The position numbers and the translations under genes are program-made. This document shows, one piece after another, positions 14,686 to 17,442 of a stretch of DNA of 64,000 nt. The stretch's first letter is position 1. Every line of letters starts with the position of its first letter. Below the pieces are notes generated by a model. That model saw only the letters and a program-made list of their open reading frames with translations. It was not told where the DNA came from and did not search any database. The DNA comes from Falsirhodobacter flavus (GTDB lineage: Bacteria > Pseudomonadota > Alphaproteobacteria > Rhodobacterales > Rhodobacteraceae): contig JARWBI010000001.1 in NCBI GenBank assembly GCA_029846755.1, forward strand, positions 620,001 to 684,000. Direction: 5' to 3'.

Positions 14686-16377
14686 ATGGCGACGATTTCC
14701 CGCGCGACCTATGCCGCAATGTTCGGCCCGACCACGGGCGACCGCATCCGCCTTGGCGATACCGACCTCATCATCGAGGTGGAGCGCGACCTGACCACCT
14801 ATGGCGAGGAGGTGAAGTTCGGCGGCGGCAAGGTGATCCGCGACGGCATGGGGCAGTCTCAGGTCACGCGGGCGGGCGGGGCGGTGGATACCGTCATCAC
14901 CAACGCGCTGATCGTGGATCATTCGGGCATCTACAAGGCCGATGTGGGTTTGCGGGACGGGCTGATCCACAAGATCGGCAAGGCAGGCAACCCCGACACC
15001 CAGCCGGGCGTGGACATCGTCGTGGGTCCGGGAACCGAGGTGATCGCGGGCGAGGGCAAGATCCTGACCGCCGGCGGGATGGACAGCCACATCCATTACA
15101 TCTGCCCCGAGCAGATCGACCACGCGCTGCATTCCGGCATGACAACGATGCTGGGCGGCGGCACCGGTCCAGCACATGGCACGCTGGCGACGACCTGCAC
15201 GCCGGGGCCGTGGCATATCGGGCGGATGCTCATGGCGGCGGATGCGTTTCCGATGAACCTTGCCTTCACCGGCAAGGGCAACGCCTCGCGCCCCGAAGGG
15301 TTGGAGGAGCAGATCCGTGCGGGCGTCGTTGGGCTGAAACTGCACGAGGATTGGGGCACGACACCCGCCGCCATCGACTGCTGCCTGACGGTCGCGGACC
15401 GGATGGATGTGCAGGTGATGATCCATACCGACACATTGAACGAATCCGGTTTTGTGGAAAACACCCTGGCCGCGATCAAGGGCCGCACGATCCACGCCTT
15501 CCACACCGAAGGGGCCGGTGGCGGCCATGCGCCCGACATCCTGAAGGTGGTGGGGTCGGCCAACATCATCCCAAGCTCGACCAACCCTACCATGCCCTAC
15601 ACCCGCAACACGGTGGAGGAGCATCTGGACATGCTGATGGTGTGCCATCACCTCGACCGTTCGATCCCCGAGGATGTGGCCTTCGCCGAAAGCCGCATCC
15701 GGCGCGAGACGATTGCGGCGGAAGATATCCTGCACGACATGGGCGCGCTGTCGATCTTGTCATCCGACAGTCAGGCGATGGGCCGCGTGGGCGAGGTCAT
15801 CACCCGCACATGGCAGACCGCGCACAAGATGAAGGTCCAGCGCGGGGCCGAGGGGGCGAACGACAATGCCCGCGTCCGGCGCTTCATCGCCAAATACACG
15901 ATCAACCCGGCGATCTGTCATGGGGTGTCACCGCATATCGGTTCCGTGGCAGAGGGCAAACGCGCCGATCTGGTGCTGTGGTCGCCCGCCTTCTTCGGCA
16001 CCAAACCCGAGATGGTGCTGCTGGGCGGGATGATCGCGGTGGCGCAGATGGGCGATCCGAACGGGTCGATTCCAGCGATGCCATTCTACAGCCGCCCGAT
16101 GTTCGGGGCCTATGGCGGGGCACGGACGGCGTCTTCGGTCACCTTTGTGTCGCAGGCAGCGATGGAAGATGACGTGCGTGGCAAGCTGGGGCTGCAAAAG
16201 CAGACGGTTCCGGTCATCGGCACGCGCGGGATCGGCAAGGCGGATATGGTGCTGAACAATGCCCGCCCCGAGATTTCGGTGAATCCCGAAACCTATGAGG
16301 TGCGGGCGGATGGCGAGCTGCTGACCTGCGAGCCGCTGGCGGAACTACCCCTTGCCCAGCGGTATTTCCTGTTTTGA
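14686..16377 (+). CDS. ureC: Urease alpha (catalytic) subunit
   Basis: Catalytic subunit, 563 aa, that hydrolyses urea to ammonia and carbamate at a di-nickel centre. All active-site residues are visible: His135/His137 (DSHIHY), carbamylated Lys218 (GLKLHEDWG), His247 (MIHTD), His273 (FHTEG), the flap Cys320-His321 (MVCHH) and Asp361 (SSDSQAM). The C-terminus (PLAQRYFLF) is the normal family end. The subunit itself is therefore intact. Immediately after the stop, the DNA belongs to an oppositely oriented CoA-transferase instead of the usual ureEFG, and the two coding regions overlap by 33 bp. Confidence 0.97.
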
Positions 16378-17442
16378 CGGGGCGGCGCGGTCCAGCGAAA
16401 GTCGGCTGCGCGAAAAGCGGATCGGGGTGCGAAGTCCGGGGATGCCATCCGGCGCGATCTGCATTCCGCGCGCGATGACCTGCGGGTCGGCCAGCGCATC
16501 GGCGACGGTGTTGATCGGACCGCCGGGGATGCCCGCCGCCTCCATCGCGGCGATCAGGTCGTCGCGGCGGCGCTGCCCGGTGCGGGCGGCCAGAAGCGCG
16601 GTCAGCGCCTCGCGATCCTCGACCCGGCCCGGATTGGTGGCCCAGCGCGGATCGGGGGTCATATCCAGCACTCGGCACAGGGCGGCGAACTGCCTGTCGT
16701 TGCCGCAGGCGACGATCAGGTGGCCGTCGCTGGCGGGGAACACCTGATACGGCACGATATTGGGATGCGCGTTGCCCATCCGCGTCGGCGTCCTGCCCGC
16801 CAGATGGTTCATCGCCTGATTGGCCAGTGCCGCCACGCCGCAATCCAGCAGCGCAAGGTCCACCTGCTGCCCAAGCCCCGAGCGTTCGCGTTCCGCCAGC
16901 GCCGCCTGAATCCCGATCACGCCGTAAAGCCCGGTCAGAATGTCGATCCATGCGACACCGATCTTCTGCGGCTCGCCCGCCGGATCGCCGGTCAGGTCCA
17001 TGATGCCGCACATGCCTTGGATCAGGAAGTCATAGCCCGGACGGCTGGAATACGGCCCGTCCTGCCCGAACCCGGTGATCGAGGCATAGACGAGGCGCGG
17101 GTTGATCGCCGAGAGCGTCCCGTAATCCAGCCCGTATTTCGCGAGCCCGCCGGGGCGGAAATTTTCGACTACCACATCGGCAGTGCGGATCAGATCGACC
17201 ACCTGCGCCAGTTGTGCCGGATCGTTGAAATCGCACGTCAGCGAGGACTTTCCCCGGTTCGCCGCATGGAAATAAGCGGCGGAGCCTTCGATGAAGGGCG
17301 GCCCCCAGGTGCGGGTGTCGTCGCCCTCGGGGGACTCGACCTTTACCACATCGGCGCCCAGATCGGCCAGCGTCTGCCCGATCCACGGACCCGCAAGGAT
17401 GCGGGCCAGTTCGACCACCTTCAGCCCGTGCAGCGGCGTCAT
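16345..17442 (-). CDS. CaiB/BaiF-type CoA-transferase, probably succinyl-CoA:glutarate CoA-transferase
   Basis: A 365-aa class III CoA-transferase. The start [29 protein letters not shown], the catalytic Asp in [19 protein letters not shown] and a [14 protein letters not shown] stretch are family marks. Overlap (TGATG) with the upstream glutaryl-CoA dehydrogenase gene points to activation of glutarate in lysine/tryptophan breakdown. The C-terminus looks cut: after [14 protein letters not shown], where relatives usually continue with a LGQHT-like helix, it runs on as [10 protein letters not shown], encoded by antisense ureC sequence (the S is the complement of the ureC stop codon). Confidence 0.88.

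Follow-up and report, generated by a model that had tools for sequence, protein, structure and literature searches.

The urease operon in the window (the whole 64,000-nucleotide stretch of DNA analyzed here) raises the question of how its product could mature. Nickel insertion requires UreF and UreG, and the operon stops at ureC, where the very next base already belongs to a convergent CoA-transferase gene. A first-pass annotation had proposed that a deletion or rearrangement at this point removed ureE, ureF, and ureG together with the true end of the CoA-transferase gene. Our own reading, in which we have high confidence, is that the urease system is complete but split in two, with its structural half in the window, in a bacterium of the genus to which Falsirhodobacter xinxiangensis belongs.

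The structural half begins with ureD (12963 to 13787, 274 aa), which matched the Pfam UreD model at 2.4e-45. It is followed by ureA, which encodes the gamma subunit (13795 to 14097; NCBIfam NF009712, 161.8 bits versus a cut-off of 123), ureB, which encodes the beta subunit (14105 to 14410; NCBIfam NF009682, 167.4 bits versus a cut-off of 129), a 91-aa ORF in the interval between ureB and ureC (14407 to 14682), and ureC, which encodes the alpha subunit (14686 to 16377, 563 aa; TIGR01792, 947 bits versus a cut-off of 680). All five genes are complete on the + strand between 12963 and 16377, as the first-pass annotation had described them. ureC extends to its native stop codon, TGA at 16375–16377, and its ten-residue C-terminal end resembles that of relatives. 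All three structural subunits were found, and the nickel-binding motifs (47 residues in all), which we take to hold the nickel ligands, are present in the urease translation. The 91-aa ORF gave a phasin-like match (NCBIfam NF045536) of 24.5 bits, below the cut-off of 100; it has relatives of 43–51% identity in genomes G031, G032, G057, and G069 and was not found in G001, G003, G005, or the compact urease cluster of F. xinxiangensis (G004). Between 12700 and 16700, no sigma-70-like promoter was found compared to 0.6 in shuffles, in a scan that says little for this clade, and no terminator was found at the junction, with one terminator-like site within ureC compared to 1.5 in shuffles.

Thus ureD adjoins ureABC, and the other accessory genes are not clustered with ureC. 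Intact ureE, ureF, and ureG, followed by urtABCDE, are located on the same contig as the window, 420 kb away, with UreF at C11:1056309 and UreG at C11:1056827. UreE (149 aa), UreF, and UreG (205 aa) match their Pfam models; UreD and UreF were both matched by Pfam models but by none in NCBIfam. The reading frames of UreD, UreE, UreF, and UreG, the accessory set of a nickel urease, are therefore all open in the same genome. In the 15-kb neighborhood of ureEFG there are, in order, liv genes on the – strand, ureE, ureF, ureG, and urtABCDE on the + strand, an EF-P-like gene on the – strand, and a DUF1476-like gene on the + strand, where the names liv, urt, EF-P, and DUF1476 are those that we presume to apply. 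UrtA, when scanned, was a periplasmic binding protein, and ureE starts about 125 bp from livK. The EF-P-like protein of this locus (L002, 13410–13973) is 100% identical in the window genome (G000) and F. xinxiangensis; its other matches at E up to 1e-40 in seven genomes of the genus reach only 39%, in G000, G004, and G006. The claim that ureEFG had been deleted did not hold, as these intact distant copies on the same contig rule out their loss. What remains of the view that the operon is broken after ureC is that ureC is parted from ureE; the parted genes are still in the genome.

Comparison with relatives indicates where the system came apart. Among 68 genomes with ureC, five of them in the genus, gene order was read in 15 loci from other genera, and ureE follows ureC in 14 of these. 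The order ureDAB-ORF-ureC-ureEFG-urtABCDE is found in one piece in G057, where the extra ORF is present with about 1.1 kb more before ureC. Since relatives such as G057 have the unbroken order, the system of the window genome appears to have parted between ureC and ureE. The one exception among the 15 loci (L184, in G063) is likely a split of its own in another genus, with urtABCDE-ureAB-ureC, neither ureD nor ureEFG in view, and ureG on another contig. Measured as the distance between ureC and ureG, with the best match alone used in two-copy genomes, the two genes lie within 10 kb in 58 of the 66 genomes that have both; G028 and G036 lacked a ureG match above the cut-off and were excluded, and the contig of G036 ends after ureF. 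The two genes are farther apart on one contig in four genomes, G000, G003, G024, and G017 (in the last of which ureE and ureF are beside ureC), and on different contigs in another four, in some cases perhaps through contig ends only.

A second member of the genus, G003 (L070, L078), carries ureEFG next to livK and, 334 kb from them, ureDABC at a third site; no urt genes are beside either half. Since ureDABC of G003 are at yet another site, the split takes more than one form in the genus. The region from liv to DUF1476 is unbroken in four other members (G001, G002, G005, and G006), which suggests that ureEFG came to livK by insertion. In the tree of the liv genes, G000 groups with G004, and G003 with G005 and G006, with support of 100 each.

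At the other join, the seam, a rearrangement junction, lies between 16377 and 16378, where the last base of the ureC stop codon meets the complement of the Pro355 codon of the CoA-transferase and where homology ends on both sides. This agrees with the first-pass annotation, which had assigned the base after the ureC stop to the CoA-transferase and placed a breakpoint at about 16375–16380. It had also described a 33-bp overlap in which the CoA-transferase ends in antisense ureC, and the sequence confirmed this: the overlap (16345 to 16377, on both strands) is codon-aligned and consists of the last ten ureC codons and the stop, which in antisense provide the ten residues that follow SLDRAAP and a stop of their own. 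The antisense stop, TAG, is the complement of a CTA leucine codon (16345–16347, ureC codon 554). CTA is rare, accounting for 2 of 339 leucine codons in nine genes of the window, and past it the antisense frame of ureC stays open for 138 more codons. In a set of 34 distinct ureC genes from 46 loci, with duplicates counted once, an antisense stop at codon 554 was found in 2 of the 33 other genes, and 15 of the 33 had no stop at all in this frame; in the 18 that had a stop in the frame of the CoA-transferase, the median distance to it was 102.5 codons. Repeats between 12700 and 16700 comprised 20 direct families and 22 inverted pairs of 14–46 nt, which are raw counts without a chance control, and a 16-nt inverted pair with one arm beside the seam (16381–16396) was taken as chance.

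The gene that received this end encodes a class III CoA-transferase (16345 to 17442, – strand), whose match to Pfam PF02515 (2.6e-120, 402 bits) covers positions 1–361 of 366 and thus almost the whole profile. Its best match among more specific models, succinate–glutarate CoA-transferase NF052585, scored 482.9 bits, below the cut-off of 750, and the protein is not assigned to that family. It is paired with an acyl-CoA dehydrogenase gene (17442 to 18632, – strand; no NCBIfam model at cut-off), and of the 80 loci that contain a homologue of the CoA-transferase, 66 also contain a relative of this dehydrogenase with at least 50% identity. The C-terminal ends were compared in 79 of the 80 homologues, one having been dropped because its contig ended before the stop. 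In the columns after AAP, the homologues tend to share an LGxGxWxF-type tail (L in 72, G in 62, W in 45, and F in 55 of the 79), and none of this tail is present in the window protein, which has instead the ten antisense residues. Since this motif is missing, the native end was probably replaced, as had been claimed, though short and divergent ends do occur among the homologues: their tails after AAP range from 0 to 151 aa with a median of 14, and 11 of the 79, F. xinxiangensis included, have tails of at most 10 aa. Apart from F. xinxiangensis, no ure genes were found near the homologues in any of the 79 loci, within flanks of up to 10 kb or less at contig ends.

The most informative relative is F. 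xinxiangensis TJ48 (G004), a sister that carries eroded forms of both joins. Its CoA-transferase is 94% identical to that of the window and ends in SKQNIGEG, the same kind of tail, and it is joined to an eroded ureDAB-ORF-ureC whose flanks are collinear with the window at 86–92%. The remnant consists of a short 5′ piece of ureC, a near-intact ORF, pieces of ureB and ureA, and an open ureD frame; the ORF and UreD are 95.6% and 91.4% identical to those of the window in amino acid sequence. Protein searches of the remnant found no UreA or UreC match and only residues 74–101 of UreB (1e-8). The CoA-transferase gene continues into what appears to be decayed antisense ureC, whose match scored 92 with the CoA-transferase tail included, compared to a maximum of 56 in 500 shuffles; the DNA past the stop alone gave a weaker signal, with a score of 72 compared to a maximum of 65. 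In the same remnant (L067), the ureD frame (11529–12338, 269 aa) and the ORF (11089–11397), with dN/dS to the window of 0.12 and 0.07, sit beside the truncated ureA, ureB, and ureC; with ureD still open, the structural half is not dead in every gene.

Next to livK, F. xinxiangensis has the EF-P gene and no ureEFG or urt. The gap between livK and EF-P nevertheless contains matches of 44 and 38 bp to ureE, a 92-bp match to the ureG–urtA intergenic DNA, and a 34-bp match at the urtE/EF-P end. Remnants at both sites indicate that the sister lineage once had each of the unlinked halves and that both eroded there. As judged from these sequences, the seam and the split predate the divergence from F. 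xinxiangensis, and a rearrangement after that divergence is ruled out because the sister carries the same seam. The first-pass annotation had looked to sister species for the same overlap with ureEFG elsewhere, or for homologues with the same end, as a sign against its reading. F. xinxiangensis provides the decayed seam and a CoA-transferase end that is nearly the same, but its ureEFG adjoin a different ureC.

The urease genes of the window genome appear to be under constraint. Pairwise dN/dS of its ure genes and urtA to the intact genes of genus members was 0.07–0.35, with the lowest values for ureC (0.07, compared to G004) and ureG (0.09–0.12, compared to genus members). For UreD, the window branch had a length of 0.008 and that of the F. 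xinxiangensis remnant 0.095; compared to their counterparts in G003, G004, and G005, UreD and UreF have diverged to a fair degree (66–69% identity at the amino acid level). The low dN/dS and the short UreD branch support a working urease whose maturation in trans would fall to the distant UreE, UreF, and UreG. The urease is probably active because every subunit and accessory gene is open and dN/dS is low.

The intact urease genes of F. xinxiangensis have a history of their own. One ureC and one ureG were found in this genome, both in a compact cluster in which urtABCDE-ureDABC face ureGFE, as in G005. In protein trees, ureD and ureEFG of the cluster group with those of G003 and G005 and urt with that of G005, whereas ureC groups with the window (support 100 each). 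Synonymous distances to the window follow a similar division: dS is 0.39 for ureD and 0.35 for the ORF of the remnant, and 0.39 each for ureC and ureA of the cluster, compared to 0.54–1.07 for ureD, ureB, ureE, ureF, ureG, and urtA of the cluster. For ureC, 67 informative sites pair G000 with G004 compared to 17 and 16 for the other patterns, and the signal toward the window extends over the gene with no clear breakpoint; ureF (23 compared to 15 and 10) and ureG (16 compared to 9 and 11) show the same pattern in milder excess. In nucleotide topology tests, the pairing of G004 ureC with G005 or G003 alone was rejected (AU p at most 0.00012), and the data fit both a pairing with the window and a G004 gene basal to G003 and G005. 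None of the five trees was rejected for ureD or ureAB (AU p > 0.05 throughout). With ureEFG, the placement of G004 beside the window (AU 0.50) was accepted, as was its placement with G003 and G005 (0.73), and G004 with G005 was rejected (0.035), which runs against the protein tree (support 95); urt was the only gene set to reject G004 with the window (AU 0.013).

The ureC of the compact cluster (L068, 9651–11345) seems to differ in history from most of its neighbors, possibly through gene conversion, and its likeness to the window suggests recombination. The simplest reading of these data, which falls short of proof, is that an acquired cluster took up the native ureC. We tentatively propose, as a possible course of events, that the native ureC of the split locus moved by recombination into an acquired cluster that kept its foreign ureD, ureB, ureEFG, and urt, after which the unlinked halves may both have eroded. 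If true, F. xinxiangensis would offer a natural case of a single catalytic subunit transplanted into a maturation set of foreign origin.

Several other explanations of the locus can be weighed against this evidence. A deletion at the junction that removed ureEFG and left an inactive urease, unable to mature, would agree with the absence of these genes next to ureC in a collection of genomes where ureC and ureG mostly stay within 10 kb, but it is very improbable given the intact ureEFG in the same genome and the strong constraint on ureC. An assembly error, either at the seam or in the 420-kb distance, might be suspected in a draft genome of 51 contigs. We give it almost no credence, since both halves lie inside one contig of 1.16 Mb and both joins recur, eroded, in the independent assembly of F. 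xinxiangensis.

Paralogy followed by reciprocal loss deserves more attention, though we consider it unlikely. Under this explanation, two ancestral copies of ureDABC existed, one by ureEFG and one by the CoA-transferase gene, and the lineage of the window kept the latter; the full cluster of F. xinxiangensis, together with its remnants of a second one, could be taken as a trace of such a state. The window genome has, however, a single ureC, with no second one found at E up to 0.001; its ureE lies close to livK; and a blastn comparison (E up to 1e-5) of the 15 kb surrounding ureEFG with ureDABC of G001, G003, G004, and G005 gave no match. Furthermore, the full cluster of F. xinxiangensis looks acquired rather than like an old duplicate, because it groups with G003 and G005 in protein trees, though the nucleotide tests are less clear.

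With a split but complete system as the preferred reading, the following course may be proposed. A cluster of the type ureDAB-ORF-ureC-ureEFG-urtABCDE would have parted between ureC and ureE, and ureDAB-ORF-ureC would have landed against the 3′ end of the CoA-transferase gene. Antisense ureC codons would then have taken the place of the last residues of the CoA-transferase, with the rare leucine codon CTA providing the stop, and ureEFG-urtABCDE would have ended up 420 kb away, flanked by livK and EF-P. UreE, UreF, and UreG presumably load nickel in trans into UreABC made from the window locus. This reading corrects the call of gene loss that a single window would suggest, and the erosion of both unlinked halves in a sister that has another copy fits halves that work as a unit.

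Compared to known systems, unlinked urease halves are an arrangement of a kind already described. Scattered urease genes have been described in cyanobacteria, and clustering of the accessory genes with ureC is usual and not required (PMC6737895). In the parts of that source available to us, Nostoc (Anabaena) PCC 7120 carries ureEFG apart from a locus in which an unknown gene separates ureDAB from ureC, much as in the window genome, where a gene also stands between ureDAB and ureC. Unlike in Nostoc, where urtABCDE form a separate cluster, urtABCDE follow ureEFG in the window genome, and the same parts of the account make no mention of a seam with an overlapping convergent gene (PMC6737895). A largely abstract-level literature search returned no report of a split urease in the bacterial group of the window. 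Compact clusters in G057, G052, and G022 have the same genes in the same order, with the extra ORF in G057, and differ in that ureDAB-C-EFG-urt are contiguous, whereas the window system is parted between ureC and ureE. The clusters of F. xinxiangensis (contig C67) and G005 have the same gene set in the same genus, but in them urtABCDE precede ureDABC, ureGFE converge on ureC, and the extra ORF was not found.

What makes the locus interesting is the seam, together with the decay that both halves underwent in the sister. Prokaryotic gene overlaps have been described, as far as the portions consulted go, as arising when a stop codon is lost and another one in the neighboring gene is used (PMC3887535, for same-strand pairs; PMC2174442, for overlaps generally). 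The CoA-transferase gene resembles these cases in that it runs into its neighbor to the next stop. Unlike in those cases, its native end was probably exchanged for another at the seam of a rearrangement, where a rare leucine codon of a convergent gene serves as the stop. The seam illustrates how a rearrangement can supply a new C-terminal end from the antisense strand of a neighboring gene, terminated by a rare synonymous codon.
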